From assembly GCA_030433115.1 (NCBI GenBank), contig JAUILH010000018.1, forward strand, positions 1 to 43,635: 43,635 bases of DNA, written 5' to 3'. The DNA is from Bacteroidia bacterium (GTDB lineage: Bacteria > Bacteroidota > Bacteroidia > Flavobacteriales_D > JAUILH01). The notes beneath the pieces are model-generated. The model saw only the letters and a program-made list of their open reading frames with translations. It made no database searches and had not been told where the DNA came from. Positions 9,732-20,188 of this stretch are shown here, piece by piece; position 1 is the first letter of the stretch; each line of letters begins with the position of its first letter. The position numbers and the translations under genes were made by a program.

Positions 9732-11984
9732 TTATTGTTTGATTACCCTGGTTCTGTAAATCGCTTGTTGAGGTGTCTCGAGCTCAATCACATATAGACC
9801 CTTTTCTCCATCTAAATGGATGATAAAGTTTGAATCTGAGACGGTTTGCTGTGGATGAACGATCTGACCAAGTGCATTGTAAACGGTGTACGCCATCCCT
9901 TTCTCATAATTCTCAATATTGACGTTCAATTGTCCTGAGGTTGGATTGGGATACAGGCTGAGTCCAAAATAGTTCTCGGATGGCAATCCTGTAAACGCAA
10001 CTGTATGACAAGAAGAGGTGTCTGTACAACCATTCATGTCGATTCGCACAGCATAATCTCCTCCAGTTGAAACGGCAAATGTTTGGTTGGTTTCACCTGA
10101 AACTGGCGTGAGGCTGTTGGAGCAATCTAACCATTGGTAACTTGCTCCTGTTTGGTTTGCACTTAAATTCGCGCCGGAAGCAGTTACACTGGTGTCTATG
10201 GTCACAATGGTGAGGTCTAAGGTGACCAATGAATCGCACCCTGCGGCCGTTGTGAGTGTGAAAGTTGCTGTGTTATTGCTTGATGTGTATGTGTTCCCAT
10301 CAATCCAGGTATAACTGCCACAAGCTGTTTGTAGATCTGCAGCGGTAGTTGAATTTGAAAGACTTAAGTCCAAAGTAACCAATGAGTCACACCCTGCGGA
10401 ATTGGTCAACGTGAAAGTTGCTGTGTTATTTGAGCTTGTATAGGTATTTCCATCTATCCAGGTGTACGAGTCACAAGCGTTTTGCACATCAACTCCTGTA
10501 GTTGCATTTAAAATTGTCAGGTCAAGCATCACGGTGGAGTCACATCCTGCTGCATTGGTCAGCACATGGGTAGCTGTGTTGTTTGACGCAGTGTAGGTAT
10601 TCCCGTCTATCCAGGTATAAGTGTCACAGGCTGTTTGTATATCGGTTCCAGTGGTTGGTGAACATGGAATCTCTAATACATAGACTTCAGAGCCGTTTGC
10701 AGGTGTAGTTGCCCTGAAATATAGTTTGGTGCCTGAATCACGAAAACTATCTACATAATCACTGCCTGCAGGGTTGATGTCTTCTACTTGAGTCAATGAG
10801 CCCAAACTTCCATCGGTGGTGTACAGCTCGGTATCATAGCTCATAGGACCCGCTGTTGCATAAGCCTTGCCATTGAACTTACCAAGTTGTCCGTTTTGTT
10901 GTCCTTGCGACCCTGCGTTGAGGTCATCGATCATAAATGTACCAGCCGGTGTGCCATCTGTGCGCCAAATCTCATAGCCTGTTGATCCGTCGTTACCAAA
11001 AAAATAGAGATAATTTCCGGAAGAAACCATTGTGTTGTTATTCACAAATAAGAACCCGCTGGTAGGTTGTATAGCATAAGTTCCGGATTGACTGCCATTA
11101 CTTCTATACAACTCACTACTCACTCTAAAATATACTAGCCCATTATGATTGACATAATTATCTGCCATATACAAAGGGTTTCCTCCTGTATCAAACAATT
11201 GATAAGTATTTGCAATGGTACCATCTGTTACATATGACTCATTACTACTACCCATCGAAAAGAAAAGTGAGTCGTTGTGTGCATGTAAGGATTGCGTTTG
11301 AGTGTTTGCAGAACCAGGCGAATAATCCATTACACTTGTTCCAGCTAATGTTCCATCGGATTTCCAAATTTCGATTCCATGAGCAGATGTGTAGCCACTA
11401 AAGAAAAACACATTATCTGATGGATGTGGGTCTGACATATTAACCCCACCAGAGCCTGGAACAAGGTCTGCCATCAATTGAGTTCCGGCTAATGTTCCAT
11501 CGGTTTCCCAAATTTCATTACCATTTATGCCATCATCCGCAGAAAAGTAGACTTTATTGTTGAACAAAAATAAATCCTTGGGGCCATCAAATGTCGATGG
11601 ACTAATATCAACTATCATTTGCGTTCCCGCGACGGTTCCATCACTTTTCCAGAGTGCAGGACCGGTTGAGCCGTCATGACCCACAAAAATCAAAGTGCCA
11701 TTCAAATTAACCAGATTGCTTGGGTTAGGTCCAGAAAATGAATAGGGAAAACAGGCCAACCCAACTGTTCCTGCGACTGTTCCATCGGTGTAGAACAAGG
11801 TATAGGCACAAGAACCGTCATTACCCACAAAGAATAGATTGCCGTTATTGTCTGGTGTCATTTGTTGTGCATTGCAATGACCTGTTCCTGGGTTTGCCTC
11901 TAATAAGGTTGTTTGAGACCATCCAGTTTTCATGAGGGGAGCTATAGTTAAGCAAAGCAGGGAGAATAAGTACACTTTTTTCAT
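9732..11984 (-). CDS. Secreted ELWxxDGT-repeat protein with T9SS sorting domain
   Basis: 750 residues. A signal peptide (about 1-24, ending GWSQ) leads to about eight repeats of the ELWKSDGTxAGT type (ALWKSDGTVAGT, EIWETDGTLAGT, EIWKSDGTLAGT, EIWRTDGTPAGT and weaker ones), probably beta-propeller blades. Three near-identical 51-residue modules follow, each with TWIDGNTYT and AGCDS motifs. Then come an Ig/PKD-like linker with paired Cys and a C-terminal Por secretion domain (LSLYPNPTSGQLNVNIE to YRTRVIKQ). It should be exported by Sec, cross the outer membrane by the type IX system and be attached or released. Ligand and role unknown. Its promoter region contains a 20-nt-period repeat. Confidence 0.88.
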   Translation of the reverse strand: MKKVYLFSLLCLTIAPLMKTGWSQTTLLEANPGTGHCNAQQMTPDNNGNLFFVGNDGSCAYTLFYTDGTVAGTVGLACFPYSFSGPNPSNLVNLNGTLIFVGHDGSTGPALWKSDGTVAGTQMIVDISPSTFDGPKDLFLFNNKVYFSADDGINGNEIWETDGTLAGTQLMADLVPGSGGVNMSDPHPSDNVFFFSGYTSAHGIEIWKSDGTLAGTSVMDYSPGSANTQTQSLHAHNDSLFFSMGSSNESYVTDGTIANTYQLFDTGGNPLYMADNYVNHNGLVYFRVSSELYRSNGSQSGTYAIQPTSGFLFVNNNTMVSSGNYLYFFGNDGSTGYEIWRTDGTPAGTFMIDDLNAGSQGQQNGQLGKFNGKAYATAGPMSYDTELYTTDGSLGSLTQVEDINPAGSDYVDSFRDSGTKLYFRATTPANGSEVYVLEIPCSPTTGTDIQTACDTYTWIDGNTYTASNNTATHVLTNAAGCDSTVMLDLTILNATTGVDVQNACDSYTWIDGNTYTSSNNTATFTLTNSAGCDSLVTLDLSLSNSTTAADLQTACGSYTWIDGNTYTSSNNTATFTLTTAAGCDSLVTLDLTIVTIDTSVTASGANLSANQTGASYQWLDCSNSLTPVSGETNQTFAVSTGGDYAVRIDMNGCTDTSSCHTVAFTGLPSENYFGLSLYPNPTSGQLNVNIENYEKGMAYTVYNALGQIVHPQQTVSDSNFIIHLDGEKGLYVIELETPQQAIYRTRVIKQ
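10185..10643 (-). repeat. Three tandem 153-bp coding repeats
   Basis: Three in-frame units of exactly 153 bp (10643-10491, 10490-10338, 10337-10185), each encoding 51 residues beginning D-[IVL]-Q-x-AC-x-x-YTWIDGNTYT. The second and third are most alike. Confidence 0.9.
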
Positions 11985-12184: not shown

Positions 12185-14674
12185 TTGAGGTTCGATTACG
12201 CATCCATAGATTTGCCTGTTAAAGAGGTCATTCCAGATATCAGGAAGGGTCTTCAGGATCAATCAACACTCATTGTAAAAGCACCTCCCGGAGCTGGAAA
12301 AAGTACTTTGTTACCTCTGGCATTGATGGATGAGCCCTGGTTAAAAGGCAAAAAGATTTTGATGTTGGAGCCAAGGAGGTTGGCGGCCAAAACCATTGCC
12401 TTAAGATTGGCTCAATTGCTTGGAGAACCAGTTGGAAAGTCGGTTGGATATCGAGTGAGGTTTGAGAGCAAAGTCAGTGAGAATACCAAAATTGAAGTAC
12501 TGACTGAGGGGATTCTCACAAGAATGTTACAGGAGGACAACGCTCTGGAAAGCACGGGGATGGTGATTTTTGATGAATTTCATGAAAGAAGTATCCACGC
12601 AGACCTAGCCATGGCTTTGAGTCGTGAGTGTCAACAAATTTTACGACCTAATTTAAGAATTTTGGTCATGTCCGCTACTTTAGACATGCCTGAGTTGTCC
12701 TTGGCTTTGGAAGCTCCAATAATTGAAAGTCAAGGCAGGCAGTTTCCAATTGATATTCAATATGCAGGAGATACGGATCATCATTTATTGCCTGAATTGG
12801 CCGCGAATCTTGTCAAAAAAGTGCTTAGAGCTCACCCTGAAGGAGATATGCTGGTATTTCTGCCGGGTCAGGGAGAGATTAAGAAATGTGAAGCGTTATT
12901 AAGTGCAAGTCTAAAGAATGTAATGATTCATCCGCTATACGGACAATTACCGCAAAAACAACAATTATCAGCCATTTTTCCCAATAAAGCGGGCAAGCGA
13001 AAAGTCGTTCTGGCAACAAATATCGCTGAAACGAGCTTGACCATTGAGGGAGTGAGTATTGTGGTGGACTCCGGATTTGAGCGAAGAGCCAGGTACAATC
13101 CAAACTCTGGTCTTTCCAGGCTAGAAACTGTAAGAATTTCCAAAGATTCTGCAGATCAAAGGGCAGGTAGAGCAGGTCGGTTGGGGCCGGGGGTGTGCTA
13201 CAGAATGTGGACTTTTGGAACACACTCGAAAATGGCAGAACACGCCAAACCGGAAATTGAACAGGCGGATTTAAGTACGCTCATGCTTGATTTGGCGAAC
13301 TGGGGCATTTCAGACCCTGATAAACTAGTTTGGGTAACCCCGCCGCCAAAAGGAAATGTGAAAAAGGCCGTGCAGTTATTGCATGAATTAGAGGCGCTTG
13401 AGAATCATAGAATTACGGAACACGGCAAAGCACTTAATCAATTGCCAACACACCCTAGAATAGCCCACATGTTGGTAATTGCAAGGGAGTTTGATCAATT
13501 ATCATTGGCTACAGATATCGCGCCGCTTCTTGAAGAACGGGACCCCCTGTCTCAAGACATTGGTATCAACATTAATTTGAGAATTGAAGCATTAAGACGT
13601 TTTCGAAAAGATGGTGTGGGGTCCAAAAGTTTTGTCAGAATAGAAAAAATAGCGGCCCAGTATAGGAAGCTCTTCAAAATTGATGCAAGCAATGATATAT
13701 TTGATGATTTTGACACGGGAATTTTGTTAGCGAATGCTTATCCCGAGCGAATTGCATGTGCCAGACCAGGCAACAATGCCCAGTTTCAAATGGCTAATGG
13801 GAAGCTTGCAGCTGCCGGTCATCGTGACGCCTTAGCAGATGAACCATGGTTGGCAGTGGCTCACGTCAACGACCGCGAAAGAGGTGGCAAAATTTTCATG
13901 GCATCCCCTCTAAACCCAAAGGACCTCATGCCTATGGTCAAGACCCGTGAAATCATTACCTGGAATACCAAAAAAGGAGGTTTAATAGCTAGCAAAGACC
14001 TGAGAATTGGTAGTATAGTGCTTCAAAGCACGCCATTGTTGAATGCGGATTCTGATAAAATTGTTGAGGTCATTTGTGATGCAGTTGCCCGTGAAGGAAA
14101 AACACTGCTCAATTGGGATAGGTCTGTAGAACAATGGCAAAATAGAATTTTATCATTGAGACAGTGGAATCCCGATGAAAACTGGCCAGATGTTAGCACC
14201 AACCATCTCTTACAGACCAGCGCAGGTTGGCTCTCGCCATATCTTAGTGATGTTAAAAAACCTGATGATCTCAAAAAAATCGATTTGATCCAGGTTCTAA
14301 AGTATAGCATAGATTCGGATTTACAGGGATCATTGGAAAAACTGGCCCCTTCAAAGTTGACGGTCCCAAGTGGTTCAAACATCAAACTCGATTATCAAAG
14401 TAACGGCTCCGAGCCAGTTCTGGCAGTCCGTCTGCAAGAATGTTTCGGCATGACGGAAACACCGAAAATTAACAATGGAAACAACTCTGTTTTAATGCAC
14501 CTGTTATCACCAGGCTTTAAAATAGTTCAGATTACAAGTGATTTGAAGAGTTTTTGGGATTCTGGCTACCATGAAGTGAGAAAAGATTTAAGAATGCGCT
14601 ATAAGAAACATTTTTGGCCAGAAAACCCGTGGGAAGTTGATCCGATAAAAGGATCCAGAAAAAGACATAAGTAG
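12185..14674 (+). CDS. hrpB: ATP-dependent DEAH-box helicase HrpB
   Basis: 829 residues, usual HrpB length. The start is a TTG: an in-frame stop lies upstream at 12152 and no ATG occurs before the P-loop. Motifs in order: Walker A APPGAGKST (33-41); EPRRLAAK; DEFHERS (130-136) as the DExH box; SATLD near 161; TNIAETSLTIEGV; QRAGRAGRLGPGVCYR (motif VI). Then come the ratchet and OB-like helicase-associated region and the HrpB-specific C-terminal domain ending near FWPENPWEVDP. HrpB proteins are RNA/DNA helicases of poorly defined cellular role. A kinase-like gene follows after 6 nt and is probably co-transcribed. Confidence 0.95.
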   Translation: MRFDYASIDLPVKEVIPDIRKGLQDQSTLIVKAPPGAGKSTLLPLALMDEPWLKGKKILMLEPRRLAAKTIALRLAQLLGEPVGKSVGYRVRFESKVSENTKIEVLTEGILTRMLQEDNALESTGMVIFDEFHERSIHADLAMALSRECQQILRPNLRILVMSATLDMPELSLALEAPIIESQGRQFPIDIQYAGDTDHHLLPELAANLVKKVLRAHPEGDMLVFLPGQGEIKKCEALLSASLKNVMIHPLYGQLPQKQQLSAIFPNKAGKRKVVLATNIAETSLTIEGVSIVVDSGFERRARYNPNSGLSRLETVRISKDSADQRAGRAGRLGPGVCYRMWTFGTHSKMAEHAKPEIEQADLSTLMLDLANWGISDPDKLVWVTPPPKGNVKKAVQLLHELEALENHRITEHGKALNQLPTHPRIAHMLVIAREFDQLSLATDIAPLLEERDPLSQDIGININLRIEALRRFRKDGVGSKSFVRIEKIAAQYRKLFKIDASNDIFDDFDTGILLANAYPERIACARPGNNAQFQMANGKLAAAGHRDALADEPWLAVAHVNDRERGGKIFMASPLNPKDLMPMVKTREIITWNTKKGGLIASKDLRIGSIVLQSTPLLNADSDKIVEVICDAVAREGKTLLNWDRSVEQWQNRILSLRQWNPDENWPDVSTNHLLQTSAGWLSPYLSDVKKPDDLKKIDLIQVLKYSIDSDLQGSLEKLAPSKLTVPSGSNIKLDYQSNGSEPVLAVRLQECFGMTETPKINNGNNSVLMHLLSPGFKIVQITSDLKSFWDSGYHEVRKDLRMRYKKHFWPENPWEVDPIKGSRKRHK

Positions 14675-14680
14675 AAAAAC

Positions 14681-15709
14681 ATGACCGAAAGTTTCAAAAT
14701 AAGATTGCTGGAAGCGATGGGCGCAGAAGCCATCCAAGAGCAGGAAACCATTCAATCTCTTTGGAATGGTTACGGCAGAATTTTCAAGGCTAGGTTAATT
14801 GGAAATAGAACAACTCAGTTGGTCATCAAACACATCAACCCGCCCAAAACAGCTTCCCACCCGAGGGGATGGAATACCAACTTGTCCCACCAACGTAAAC
14901 TAAAATCATACTTGGTAGAAATGGCATGGTACAATCAGTATGCTCATCTCTGTGATCACACTTGCCGCATTCCGGTTTTACATGCAGCGTTGTCTGAGAA
15001 AGGAGCACATTGGGTTGTTTTAGAGGATTTGAATGACAGTGGCTTCCCGAAAAGAAAGTCGAACTTAAGGATTTCTGAAGCAAAAGTCTGTCTATCGTGG
15101 TTGGCTCATTTTCATGCCACTTTTATGGGGCAATCAACTTCTGACCTGTGGGAGAAAGGAAGTTATTGGCACCTGGATACCCGACCGGATGAGTGGGCGG
15201 CTATGCCTGAAGGTGAATTGAAGAAATCTGCTGGAAAAATTGACCAAATCTTGGATAATTGTCGTTATAAAACCATTATTCATGGAGATGCGAAAGTCGC
15301 AAACTTTTGTTTTAATGAGGATGCTTCAAAAGTTGCTGCGGTAGATTTTCAATACGTGGGGCTAGGTTGCGGCATGAAGGATGTGGTATATTTTCTGGGG
15401 AGCTGTTTAACGAGTGAGGTGTGTTATCAATATGAAACCGAATTGCTGGATCATTATTTTGTGGTCTTGGAGGATGCTTTAAATCGAAGATCTTTTGACG
15501 GGGACTATGCCAAATTAGAGATGGAGTGGCGTTCCATGTATGCCTTAGCCTGGACAGATTTTACCAGGTTTTTAATGGGCTGGATGCCGGGTCATCGGAA
15601 ATTGAACGCATACAGTGAAAAGTTGATGCGTACTGCATTGCAACATTTTAAAAGAGGAGAGTCCGGAGCCAAAGCCTCACCAAATGAACCCGGAACTCTC
15701 CCTTTTTAA
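14681..15709 (+). CDS. Small-molecule kinase of the aminoglycoside/choline (ecdysteroid-kinase-like) phosphotransferase fold
   Basis: 342 residues, cytosolic. TTQLVIKHINPP carries the expected ATP-binding Lys. HWVVLEDLND is the hinge. IIHGDAKVANFCFN contains the catalytic HGDxxxxN loop (D followed by N eight residues on), and VAAVDFQYVGLGCGMKDV carries the Mg-binding DFQ in the place of DFG. These identify the APH/choline kinase superfamily, nearest in feel to the EcKinase-like branch. The natural substrate is unknown; there is no reason to call it drug resistance. It follows hrpB by 6 nt. Its last 17 codons double as an intrinsic terminator, and its stop is 1 nt from the stop of convergent icd. 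Confidence 0.82.
   Translation: MTESFKIRLLEAMGAEAIQEQETIQSLWNGYGRIFKARLIGNRTTQLVIKHINPPKTASHPRGWNTNLSHQRKLKSYLVEMAWYNQYAHLCDHTCRIPVLHAALSEKGAHWVVLEDLNDSGFPKRKSNLRISEAKVCLSWLAHFHATFMGQSTSDLWEKGSYWHLDTRPDEWAAMPEGELKKSAGKIDQILDNCRYKTIIHGDAKVANFCFNEDASKVAAVDFQYVGLGCGMKDVVYFLGSCLTSEVCYQYETELLDHYFVVLEDALNRRSFDGDYAKLEMEWRSMYALAWTDFTRFLMGWMPGHRKLNAYSEKLMRTALQHFKRGESGAKASPNEPGTLPF
15656..15707 (+). terminator. Intrinsic terminator embedded in the kinase gene's last codons
   Basis: GGAGAGT-CCGG (15656-15666) pairs with CCGG-A-ACTCTCC (15690-15701), 11 bp with one bulged A. It is followed by TTTTT at 15703-15707, inside the final codons. On the other strand the stem is followed by TCTTTT, so it could also stop icd transcripts. 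Confidence 0.65.
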
Positions 15710-15710
15710 A

Positions 15711-17147
15711 CTATTGACCTTGTCCTAAGGAAAAGGCCAACTCACCATCAAAGGAATAAAGATTTTCCGTTTTGATCACGTCTACATCCTTGGTAATGGC
15801 ATTTCCAAGTAGACTGACGATTTGAGATTTGTCAATTTTTTGATCACCTTCTGGCTTGAATCGACAGCGCCAATGATTGGTGCAGTATGTTTCATCAAAT
15901 CCATTAGGCCAAACCTTTATACCTCTGTTTGTGATCATTTCCAACTTCACGCCTTCAAGTTCGATAGACTGAAGTTTTTCAGCCACTTTGTTGGGATTTT
16001 TTTCGCGGTCATCAACGAATACATCAATTCCCAATAATTCTTTTACCGCCGGCTTTTTCTCAGTTGCTTTTGGAGGGATAAATGCACCGTGTCCCTCAAA
16101 GTTCACTGCAGGTAAGGTCTTAGGTTGCTTATCCAAATTAGCAATTACGGTTTCTGCGAATTCTTTTGTGCCCACTAATTGTTTGCTGCTGCCTTCAGTA
16201 TAAATATCTTGCGTATGAACACCAGATTCTATGGTTGTGAGCCATGCATTCATGATTTTTTCAGCGGACTCGATTTCACCAATGTGTTTCAACATGAGGA
16301 TGGCGCCTTGCAATAAACCGGAGGGATTGGCAATGTTTTTTCCGGCTATATCTGGTGCGGATCCGTGAATCGCTTCAAACATGGCACAAGACGCCCCGAT
16401 ATTGGAAGATCCGGCCATACCCACTGACCCGGTGATTTGAGCCGCTACGTCAGACAGAATATCGCCATAGAGATTTGGCATCACCACCACGTCAAAATAC
16501 TCTGGAGTATCTGCCAGTTTTGCCGCACCTATATCCACAATCCAATGCTCATTCTCAATGTCTGAGTATTCTGCCGCAACTTCTTTGAATACTTTGTGGA
16601 ACAAACCATCTGTTTGCTTCATGATGTTGTCCTTTGAGAAGCAAGTCACTTTTTTGCGCCCATATTGTTTGGCGTATTCAAACGCATATCTAATTATTTT
16701 TTCACAACCAGGTCTGCTAATTAATTTGAGGCATTGAACCACATCATCAGTTTGCTGGTGTTCAATTCCAGCGTACAAATCTTCTTCATTTTCTCTAACA
16801 ATCACCACGTCCATAACAGGGTGTTTGGTGACTACAAATGGATGCAGACTGTTGCATGGTCTTACATTGGCGTACAAACCAAGCGTTTTTCTCATAGTAA
16901 CATTAAGGCTTTTGTATCCGCCACCTTGAGGTGTAGTAATGGGTGCTTTAAGGAACACCTTATTTCGTCTAATACTTTCCCAGGCATCTGGAGAAATACC
17001 GGATGTATTGCCACTTAGATAGACCTTTTCACCAACGCTGATTTCTTCAAATTGCACTTGGGCACCAGAGGCCTTGATAATATTAAGGGTAGCGTTCATG
17101 ATCTCAGGACCAATTCCATCTCCTTTTGCTACTGTGATTGTTTTCAT
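15711..17147 (-). CDS. icd: Isocitrate dehydrogenase, long (C-terminally extended) form
   Basis: 478 residues. The dehydrogenase oxidises and decarboxylates isocitrate to 2-oxoglutarate in the TCA cycle. Substrate residues are visible: S80, N82 and R86 in KSLNVTMRK, R96, R118 in VREN, Y125, K210, and the metal-binding NLYGDILSD (D229, D233). Residues about 345-478 are an additional C-terminal domain like that of Thermus and rickettsial-type enzymes. The coenzyme loop reads HGSAPDIAGKNIANP with D266, I267 and A273, and Q313 and T317 further on. This is the NAD-type pattern and not the K/Y/V/Y/R set of NADP enzymes, although such genes are usually labelled NADP-dependent. Stops 1 nt from the convergent kinase gene. 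Confidence 0.93.
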   Translation of the reverse strand: MKTITVAKGDGIGPEIMNATLNIIKASGAQVQFEEISVGEKVYLSGNTSGISPDAWESIRRNKVFLKAPITTPQGGGYKSLNVTMRKTLGLYANVRPCNSLHPFVVTKHPVMDVVIVRENEEDLYAGIEHQQTDDVVQCLKLISRPGCEKIIRYAFEYAKQYGRKKVTCFSKDNIMKQTDGLFHKVFKEVAAEYSDIENEHWIVDIGAAKLADTPEYFDVVVMPNLYGDILSDVAAQITGSVGMAGSSNIGASCAMFEAIHGSAPDIAGKNIANPSGLLQGAILMLKHIGEIESAEKIMNAWLTTIESGVHTQDIYTEGSSKQLVGTKEFAETVIANLDKQPKTLPAVNFEGHGAFIPPKATEKKPAVKELLGIDVFVDDREKNPNKVAEKLQSIELEGVKLEMITNRGIKVWPNGFDETYCTNHWRCRFKPEGDQKIDKSQIVSLLGNAITKDVDVIKTENLYSFDGELAFSLGQGQ

Positions 17148-17305: not shown

Positions 17306-18916
17306 TTAATTGAGTACCAACTTTTGAGTGTGGGTATTTCCATCGATGGATTCAATTGTTATGACGTAAGTCCCCGATGGCAATCCTTGGAGAAATAGTT
17401 CTTTTTGGGGATGATCGATTACCTTGATGACCCGACCTTCAATGGTGCGCACAGTGGCTTGTCTTATTGCCCCCCCAGAGACATAAACTCTCCCGTTACA
17501 AGGATTTGGATAGATATTAAATGGGGATTTCTCAGTGTCTGATGGCTGACTGGAATTAAATGATTCATTCAGCACTTTTAGGATTTGAAAGTCTGAATAA
17601 TTAACAGAGCCACTATAAATTCGGTCCACAGAAATAATGTAAGATTGGTCGTCTAGATGGTTACTGATTGATTGTGGGTCAATCTGCTCGGTGGTATCCG
17701 GGTTACATGTTCCGGTTCCCAATTGAGCAAAAGCGGAATTATCTGCATAACTGGGCAACCAACTATGGACAAGTCCCAGGTCGCCACGATAGCCTGGTGA
17801 ATTATTAGACATTTTGATACTCGTACCAAGAGCAAAAACAGCTCCATGTTCATCCAACATGACATCTCTGACTTCATCGAGATTGCCAAATGAATCATGA
17901 CTTAAATGTGACTGAATAACCCCGTTTTTATCGACCACCTTGATGTCTAAATTTTTATTCTCATCGTGTTTGTCAATATCAGTGAGCATCCAAAGTGCAT
18001 TGTTGACCTCCACCACTTTGTGAATGCGATTGTTCATCCCTGGATTAAAATTGAGCAACCATTGTCCGCTTTGCCCAAAAGTACTTATCGCTGAGCCAGT
18101 GTCATCTACCATCAGTGCGAATGCCGCATAGGCTTCTCCCACGTAATAATAACCACTAAATAGATAGCTATTATCAAGTTCAAGAATCTTATCAAGATAT
18201 GCGCCATCTTGATGGCGATTAGGGCTGAGTCCGAGAGAAGACAAACCGCTCAAGGGATGCCAGAAAATCCGTCCATCTTGCCCAAAAGTGCTATCAGTTG
18301 TCCCATTTAAGGATAATCTACCCATTACTGGAATCTCCATGTGGGCATAATTGGTGTCTAAGGATGTGAGGGAGTATACAATCTTCTCATTTTCATCAAT
18401 GGTGAGTTCTCCGGGAATATCGAAATCTCCGAACACATTGTATTCCAGGAGTCCATTTTGGCCAAAAGTACTATCGAACAGCCCTATTGAATCTATTTTC
18501 GCAATAAATACGGTCTGCGAATTTGAGACGCCATAATCATATCCGGAGCCAATAAGGTAAAGATGATTTTGGTGAACCAAACCGTGACTAATGTTGGATG
18601 AAGTCCTACCTGGAAAGTCAAAATTAAGTATGCCAGATTGACCAAAGGAAGCGTCAGGGACGCCGGCAGCGTTTAGTTTTAGAACAACCGCATCAAAGTC
18701 GTAGGCACCAGAGCTATAGTTTCCACTTGTCCCAAACACAAAAATATTGCCATCGCCATCGCAAACATGATTTGCGGTATAGTCATAGTCTTTTAAGTCG
18801 ATGGTACACACACCATTCGCACCAAAAGTGATGTCGAGACCAAGCCCTCCGCCTGTTTGGGCGAAAGGCATCTGGCCAAGACACACAATACAAACTATGA
18901 CTATAATTTGGCTCAC
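17306..18916 (-). CDS. Secreted delta-60-repeat protein with T9SS sorting domain
   Basis: 536 residues from a GTG start 3 nt after the stop of the upstream YHYH gene, implying one transcript and translational coupling. The signal peptide is short and hydrophobic (IIVIVCIVCLGQMPFAQ). Five delta-60 repeats of the xDxTFGxxGxx pattern are visible (LDITFGANG, PDASFGQSG, FDSTFGQNG, TDSTFGQDG, AISTFGQSG). The C-terminus has the Por sorting domain (FNIYPNPCNGRVYVSGG, then SGTYVITIES and a terminal KLVLN). It is therefore a probable surface or released protein of unknown function. Confidence 0.85.
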   Translation of the reverse strand: MSQIIVIVCIVCLGQMPFAQTGGGLGLDITFGANGVCTIDLKDYDYTANHVCDGDGNIFVFGTSGNYSSGAYDFDAVVLKLNAAGVPDASFGQSGILNFDFPGRTSSNISHGLVHQNHLYLIGSGYDYGVSNSQTVFIAKIDSIGLFDSTFGQNGLLEYNVFGDFDIPGELTIDENEKIVYSLTSLDTNYAHMEIPVMGRLSLNGTTDSTFGQDGRIFWHPLSGLSSLGLSPNRHQDGAYLDKILELDNSYLFSGYYYVGEAYAAFALMVDDTGSAISTFGQSGQWLLNFNPGMNNRIHKVVEVNNALWMLTDIDKHDENKNLDIKVVDKNGVIQSHLSHDSFGNLDEVRDVMLDEHGAVFALGTSIKMSNNSPGYRGDLGLVHSWLPSYADNSAFAQLGTGTCNPDTTEQIDPQSISNHLDDQSYIISVDRIYSGSVNYSDFQILKVLNESFNSSQPSDTEKSPFNIYPNPCNGRVYVSGGAIRQATVRTIEGRVIKVIDHPQKELFLQGLPSGTYVITIESIDGNTHTQKLVLN

Positions 18917-18919
18917 GGA

Positions 18920-20188
18920 CTATTTGGTGATGACCAATTTGTCTTGTGCTACAAAATTCCCATTGGCATCTCTTACCTGAATTAGGTAAATTCCGTAAGA
19001 CAAATGACTCACATCCAGAGATTTGGTGTTGTTGAGATTTGTTTTTGCCACAACAGCTCCAGTTGTACTCATGATGATCGCTTCTGTGGCTGTTGCATCA
19101 AGGTCAAAGTAAACATGTCCCTGTGCAGGATTTGGGTATAAATTGAGATTTGCATGGTTGAGTTCTGCAATACCATTGAAGCCATTCGTGCTGCACGTTG
19201 CGTTGCCAGGCACTGTTGAGTTTCCTGCGCCCTGTAAGTCCTGAGAAGAAATCACACCGTAATATTCCAAACCAATCATATATGGAAATTTAGGGTCGCC
19301 ATTAGAGTCTGTTGAGAGAAAGTAGGCGTAAGTTCCACCAGGAAATTCTGGTGTCACACAATTTCTTCCGTTATATTCGTCTAGGTCCGCATTCCCAACA
19401 TATTCATAATCTTCCCAATAAGTACCTAGTGGAAACTGAGAATCTACTGTTGGCCCGGGAGGCGTTGAGGTTGATCCGTCAGGCAAAGTTGTCCTGTTTG
19501 TGATGTTTCTAAGCTCATACCCTGCTTCCATTCTTTTAATAGGACTATTGCTGTCATTTGGGTTAGTATATCCATAGGGACCATAAATTGGGTAACCATC
19601 CATGGCCCAACCGATAATTGGAGAATGTGCAGTTGATGGATCTGAATACAAGGCGCTTGGATTGGCATGGTAGTGATATTGACCCATCTGTTGAGGGTGT
19701 CCATTCCCGTTGGCATCCATGGTTGCTCCTTCTGAAACCCAGGCATCTGCATTCCATATACCAGCACCAGATCCACTGTTGGAGTTCGTCATAGGATCAT
19801 ACGATCTGGCATCTCCTTTTCCGTAAAGAGCAACACCGTTAACAGCAACACCAAGTGCTCCAACAGTAGGTTCTGCCGTTTTCGTGCCTGTTTCTTCTGT
19901 TGGGTTTCTGGTAATTCTCCAAACAAAACTTTGAGCGGAAGGGGTGTTTGGGTTCATTGGAAATGGGCCCATCTCATATCCTGCGAGTCCTTCGCTTCTG
20001 ATGTAAACGTAGTTGTTATTGTAGCACACCTCCAGTACATCTGAAGAATCTGCCATGGTAACTGTTCCTGATCCGACATCATAAGTTGCCAGCCCATTGG
20101 AGTTCATCATCCAGGACGTAATATTTGGTTGTGCTTGGACCTGACTCGATCCAATAGTTGCCAATGCGATAAGTAAAGATTTTCTCAT
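18920..20188 (-). CDS. Secreted YHYH-domain protein with T9SS sorting domain
   Basis: 422 residues. After a signal peptide (ending QVQAQPN) the protein carries the YHYH module: MGQYHYHANPSALYS, GWAMDGYPIYGPYGY, and a third block near LGTYWEDYEYV. It also has acidic NDSN/DANGNGH stretches that may bind metal. The C-terminus is a Por sorting domain (LNLYPNPAQGHVYFDL to DKLVITK). YHYH proteins are abundant in marine bacteria, but no activity is established. It is the first gene of a two-gene unit with the delta-60 protein. The upstream region shared with 20345 contains paired AGTACCC motifs. Confidence 0.88.
   Translation of the reverse strand: MRKSLLIALATIGSSQVQAQPNITSWMMNSNGLATYDVGSGTVTMADSSDVLEVCYNNNYVYIRSEGLAGYEMGPFPMNPNTPSAQSFVWRITRNPTEETGTKTAEPTVGALGVAVNGVALYGKGDARSYDPMTNSNSGSGAGIWNADAWVSEGATMDANGNGHPQQMGQYHYHANPSALYSDPSTAHSPIIGWAMDGYPIYGPYGYTNPNDSNSPIKRMEAGYELRNITNRTTLPDGSTSTPPGPTVDSQFPLGTYWEDYEYVGNADLDEYNGRNCVTPEFPGGTYAYFLSTDSNGDPKFPYMIGLEYYGVISSQDLQGAGNSTVPGNATCSTNGFNGIAELNHANLNLYPNPAQGHVYFDLDATATEAIIMSTTGAVVAKTNLNNTKSLDVSHLSYGIYLIQVRDANGNFVAQDKLVITK

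Follow-up and report, generated by a model that had tools for sequence, protein, structure and literature searches.

A predicted NAD-type coenzyme site in a long-form isocitrate dehydrogenase from a family named NADP-dependent

According to a review (PMC4518329), prokaryotes are generally thought to have NADP-dependent isocitrate dehydrogenases (IDHs) only, with a growing number of exceptions. Subfamily IV comprises the enzymes with a C-terminal extension, among them those of Thermus and Rickettsia, and the Rickettsia enzyme is called NAD-dependent in the account of PMC3521221; the group was later filed under type I (PMC4360740). In the list given in PMC8623467 the database names of the Rickettsia proteins say [NADP], and the Thermus thermophilus enzyme (2d1c) is described as NADP-dependent by a title among the references of PMC4360740. 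Type I NAD-IDHs carry Asp, Ile and Ala in the coenzyme loop and NADP-IDHs carry Lys, Tyr and Val, as set out in PMC10380307. The same source describes dual-coenzyme type I enzymes, MfIDH with K/I/A and UmIDH with R/L/V, and such residue rules are therefore imperfect. Here we describe a subfamily IV enzyme from a Bacteroidia bacterium which we take, with a probability of about 0.87, to be an NAD-dependent IDH that would make NADH in the TCA cycle beside a monomeric NADP-type IDH.

The window protein and its coenzyme-site residues

The window analysed here, a whole stretch of 43,635 nucleotides, encodes a protein of 478 amino acids at positions 15711–17147. The earlier note on this DNA named no strand for the interval; the open reading frame lies on the minus strand, as do all parts of it given below. 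Its reading frame and translation, two profile matches, an AlphaFold model and a match to 2d1c identify it as a long-form (subfamily IV) IDH, predicted to be of the NAD type. The protein exceeds the curated cut-offs of both TIGR02924 ‘isocitrate dehydrogenase’ (698 bits against 561) and NF006673 ‘NADP-dependent isocitrate dehydrogenase’ (769 bits against 509, 260 above), which places it with the Rickettsia-type long IDHs. We take the Rickettsia proteins to be members of TIGR02924 and of NF006673/PRK09222, and TIGR02924 presumably carries its own remark that the coenzyme of its family is unclear.

The catalytic Iso_dh domain (PF00180, 328 bits) spans residues 3–334, encoded at 16146–17141, and is followed by the extension of about 100 residues that marks the Thermus/Rickettsia group (Isocitrate_DH_C_bact, PF18324, 150 bits; residues 369–478, 15714–16043). 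The AlphaFold model, built from 36 sequences, has a mean pLDDT of 86.3. The closest solved chain, by sequence as well as by structure, is Thermus 2d1c (43% identity, Z 46.8 and rmsd 2.1 across 468 residues), which aligns over the whole chain, residues 2–478 of the query against 20–495, with the C-terminal extension included; the two differ in the coenzyme loop, where Thermus has Lys-Tyr and the query Asp-Ile. NAD-dependent IDHs are among the next solved relatives: Methylococcus capsulatus 6lky, second by structure (Z 43.6) and with a molecule name of NAD-dependent, and human IDH3 alpha. These type I NAD-IDHs and yeast IDH2 share with the query the catalytic domain and a loop with Asp-Ile...Ala, but are short chains without the C-terminal domain. 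Ten residues of the window protein (S80, N82, R86, R96, R118, Y125, K172, D205, D229 and D233) match substrate and metal residues of the E. coli enzyme and are invariant across a 36-protein alignment; the protein is therefore an isocitrate dehydrogenase. In other respects it is a typical representative of an established family, subfamily IV with its C-terminal extension, and by prediction a further NAD-type member of an already known group.

The coenzyme loop, HGSAPDIAGKNIANP (residues 261–275), is encoded at 16323–16367. From an alignment by hand, the earlier note had set D266, I267, A273, Q313 and T317 against the E. coli residues K344, Y345, V351, Y391 and R395. Translation, codons and a MAFFT alignment that included E. 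coli Icd (K-12 MG1655) returned the same five pairs, and paired R292 with T214. The codons lie at 16350–16352 (D266), 16347–16349 (I267), 16329–16331 (A273), 16209–16211 (Q313) and 16197–16199 (T317); the last two residues follow from the motif HTQDIYT, which begins at residue 311. As claimed, the protein lacks all five E. coli NADP residues in this alignment and has the full D/I/A set. Where an NADP label would call for a basic residue or Tyr, at the K344, Y345, Y391 and R395 positions, the protein has Asp, Ile, Gln and Thr, and no basic residue stands at the positions of Y345, Y391, R395 or R292. The loop holds the Asp, Ile and Ala of type I NAD-IDHs, and by that published signature (PMC10380307) the protein therefore counts as the NAD type.

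Two coenzyme-site types under one family name

Relatives were collected from a phylum sample of 218 genomes, which gave 36 long forms scoring above the TIGR02924 cut-off; from the order, where 25 of 150 genomes, the window’s own included, had a match at E 1e-100; and from named genomes, the best 80 of the 204 found with query peptides, a set biased to close kin. The family comparison covers 138 long-form proteins, the query and 137 relatives, with one identical pair kept (L106, L166). A further 23 distant long forms served as an outgroup in one analysis and belong neither to the 138 nor to the 99-row tree described below.

Arg occupies both position 266 and position 267 in 82 of the 138 proteins, and 81 of those 82 have Tyr at 313. 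Among the 56 proteins without the Arg pair, 55 lack Tyr313, 38 have Asp266 and 53 have Ile267. Ala273 is invariant (138/138) and position 317 varies in both types, and neither is therefore diagnostic in the long-form family. The NAD-type reading of the earlier note is supported, with one qualification on the residues: Asp266, Ile267 and Gln313, with Thr214 at the Arg292 position, point to NAD, and A273 and T317 are uninformative. In a scan of all 478 columns, those most tied to the Arg-Arg state were 267, 313 and 266; since the state is itself defined by 266 and 267, only 313, the position of E. coli Y391, is an independent result. Positions 266, 267 and 313 switch together in the long-form family, a covariation that also upholds the hand alignment.

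The NF006673 cut-off was passed by all ten relatives tested, five with Asp-Ile and five with Arg-Arg, each by more than 250 bits. One NCBI equivalog model named ‘NADP-dependent’ covers two coenzyme-site types, and its name, with the score of the window protein, agrees with the earlier remark that such genes are usually labelled NADP-dependent. For the window protein that label is probably wrong, judging by the residues. Taken at face value, the name would make metabolic models book NADPH, not NADH, at a main TCA step for Asp-Ile members, and the presence of one enzyme of each type in such a genome would be missed. Positions 266, 267 and 313 offer a simple rule for checking names in the family.

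That Arg-Arg-Tyr is an NADP site is our assumption, made purely from its chemistry. The motif is widespread, with examples among long-form IDHs whose records are titled Bacteroidetes, Acidobacteria, Chloroflexi and Planctomycetes (for example L126, L133, L171, L178, L182 and L192). A literature search by titles and abstract openings, with subscription papers mostly outside its coverage, found no description of an Arg-Arg-Tyr site in isocitrate dehydrogenase; the search likewise found no paper on Crocinitomix with isocitrate dehydrogenase or on family-model names. One genome (G208) encodes three long-form IDHs with differing sites, RRAYK, TIAFQ and TIAKS (L012, L034 and L035), and gave no match to the monomeric, E. 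coli-type Icd or type II kinds.

Among the relatives collected, the nearest to the query are L119, L120, L121 and L123, at 78, 77, 76 and 74% identity, all with D/I/A; their sources are named Crocinitomix sp., Crocinitomicaceae bacterium, uncultured Flavobacteriales bacterium and another Crocinitomicaceae bacterium. Many relatives with 70–74% identity, including the best three other matches from the query’s order, have R266, R267 and Y313 in place of the query’s D, I and Q. Family members with some 70% identity that stand on opposite sides of the switch lend themselves to studying how coenzyme use is altered, and perhaps restored, in nature.

A tree was built with the coenzyme columns masked and near-copies removed, leaving 99 rows; its bootstrap was not fully settled. 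E. coli Icd (L093), the partial sequences L117 (TIAPE) and L170 (RRAYE) and the duplicates L096 and L154 were left out of the trees. The query and its four nearest relatives form a five-protein D/I/A clade (support 100/95) that adjoins a large, mainly Arg-Arg group of Bacteroidota. On the best tree the Arg-Arg label must have changed 12 times or more, with at least five of these changes forced by well-supported branches, and a model without loss of Arg-Arg is far poorer (lnL −70.1 against −40.7). The site therefore probably switched several times in the long-form family.

The direction of change on the query’s own branch depends on branch lengths. For the ancestor of the query clade and the Bacteroidota Arg-Arg radiation, a two-state model gives a probability of Arg-Arg of 0.88–0.89 with the tree’s branch lengths and 0.23 with equal ones; over 200 bootstrap trees with equal lengths the median was 0.23, with values above 0.5 in 11.5%. 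A tree that holds the Arg-Arg groups together, with the query clade and its three basal neighbours outside, would need no reversion there, and the AU test did not reject it (p-AU 0.449). We therefore claim no reversion for the query. A broader scenario, in which Asp-Ile (NAD) and Arg-Arg-Tyr sites interchanged repeatedly, Arg-Arg-Tyr being an NADP solution unlike the Lys-Tyr-Val-Tyr-Arg of E. coli, and the query clade has naturally reverted from NADP to NAD in a lineage that kept an unrelated monomeric NADP enzyme, is tentative and, as a whole, rather doubtful.

Coenzyme preference of the window enzyme

By analogy with type I enzymes, Asp266 would occupy the site at which NADP enzymes bind the 2′-phosphate through a basic residue, and should repel NADP. 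It should also form hydrogen bonds with the hydroxyls of the adenosine ribose of NAD, a contact said to be made in type I enzymes; in the engineered E. coli enzyme Asp344 reportedly contacts the ribose. Ile267 and Gln313 would omit the Tyr contacts. Oxidation of isocitrate to 2-oxoglutarate in the TCA cycle would then yield NADH, and the separate monomeric NADP-type IDH of the genome would supply NADPH, a proposed division of labour.

Some observations speak against NAD. The closest solved structure, 2d1c, is described as NADP-dependent, albeit with Lys-Tyr where the query has Asp-Ile, and the query lies near apparent NADP-type enzymes, the many Arg-Arg-Tyr relatives noted above. The same nearness would suit an enzyme of dual or weak specificity, with Asp266 favouring NAD and NADP still used at a useful rate, for which MfIDH and UmIDH are type I precedents. 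However, both of these carry a basic residue at the position of the query’s Asp (PMC10380307), and the query lacks one at each of the four other positions compared above, which makes dual use unlikely.

An NADP-dependent enzyme as labelled, with the 2′-phosphate held by residues beyond the five compared, would agree with the name of NF006673, and two lysines, K210 and K270, are located within or close to the coenzyme region. Lys210 occurs in 81 of the 82 Arg-Arg proteins; yet 37 of the 56 others also have a basic residue there (Lys or Arg), and Lys270 is found in 25 of the 56 and in 2 of the 82, so neither position marks the basic type. With Asp, the published NAD residue (PMC10380307), at the K344 position, we give this alternative very little credence. 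Another beta-decarboxylating dehydrogenase acting on isopropylmalate or homoisocitrate, in which Asp-Ile-Ala is normal, might be considered because the window protein is the sole PF00180 protein found in a genome 93.66% complete, with no separate LeuB found, but this is scarcely credible given S80, N82, R86 and R96 at the positions of E. coli S113, N115, R119 and R129, the full C-terminal extension, and scores that fall short of the respective cut-offs for leuB (TIGR00169, 176 bits against 353), the best homoisocitrate model (289) and LEU3_arch (305), compared with 769 for NF006673 and 698 for TIGR02924.

Other isocitrate dehydrogenases and the gene neighbourhood

The window’s genome (4.38 Mb in 264 contigs) has one copy of a monomeric isocitrate dehydrogenase, on contig C54 (TIGR00178, 1319 bits). 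In the Azotobacter vinelandii monomeric enzyme the 2′-phosphate is held by His589 and Arg600, as described in PMC8287583, and the monomer of this genome has K586, H587, R598 and R655 at the NADP contact positions. Searches of the genome found no E. coli-type Icd (E 1e-110), type II IDH (E 1e-60), isocitrate lyase (E 1e-50) or PntB transhydrogenase (E 0.001), and the window protein was the only PF00180 protein at E 0.001. The genome is thus likely to encode one NADH-forming and one NADPH-forming IDH. Since the monomer is present, an error in the label would not strip the cell of an NADPH-forming IDH, and the consequence for NADPH supply raised by the earlier note is weaker than it suggested, even with the label probably wrong. 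All four clade-mates of the query also have a match to monomeric IDH, partial in two of them. Of 80 genomes searched for isocitrate lyase, of the glyoxylate shunt, 10 had a match at E 1e-50, the window’s own not among them.

Of the 36 long-form genomes in the phylum sample, 34 encode another IDH. The partner search covered 72 genomes, from 102 loci first intended, and partner counts refer to 107 genomes in total, G245, likewise searched and with a partial long form (L117), not being among them. An expectation that Arg-Arg genomes would lack another NADP-IDH was ruled out, as 43 of the 52 Arg-Arg-only genomes have one. A monomeric, E. coli-type or type II partner is present in 37 of 38 genomes with the Asp form and in 14 of 16 that have other types (x-Ile, Lys-Met); the one genome with both kinds has none (0/1). 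Monomeric partners are commoner with non-Arg-Arg forms (29/54) than in Arg-Arg-only genomes (8/52), a link that independent pairs do not support (five pairs, starred branches, median p 0.5).

NADP-type residues were found in all 60 fully readable monomers (from 65 loci, some in genomes with an untyped long form), and 21 of the 23 E. coli-type Icd partners have KYVYR. The exceptions are QFMIK (L237, genome G007) and KFMIN (L239, genome G091), both from genomes that also have an Arg-Arg-Tyr long form. In type II enzymes Arg and His are, as a rule, the NADP-type residues, and Thr-Arg-His occurs in all 34 type II partners. The NADP-type partners are largely alike in Arg-Arg and Asp-Ile genomes, and therefore do not reveal the coenzyme of the Arg-Arg-Tyr enzymes.

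No TCA-cycle gene was found among the ten neighbouring proteins scanned. Between a HrpB-type helicase gene (window 12185–14674) and the IDH gene lies a plus-strand gene for an Ecdysteroid kinase-like/APH-fold protein (14681–15709; PF02958, PF01636). Three minus-strand genes of the window (9732–11984, 17306–18916 and 18920–20188) encode proteins that carry Por_Secre_tail, a sorting domain of type IX secretion; a YHYH domain is also present in one of these proteins.
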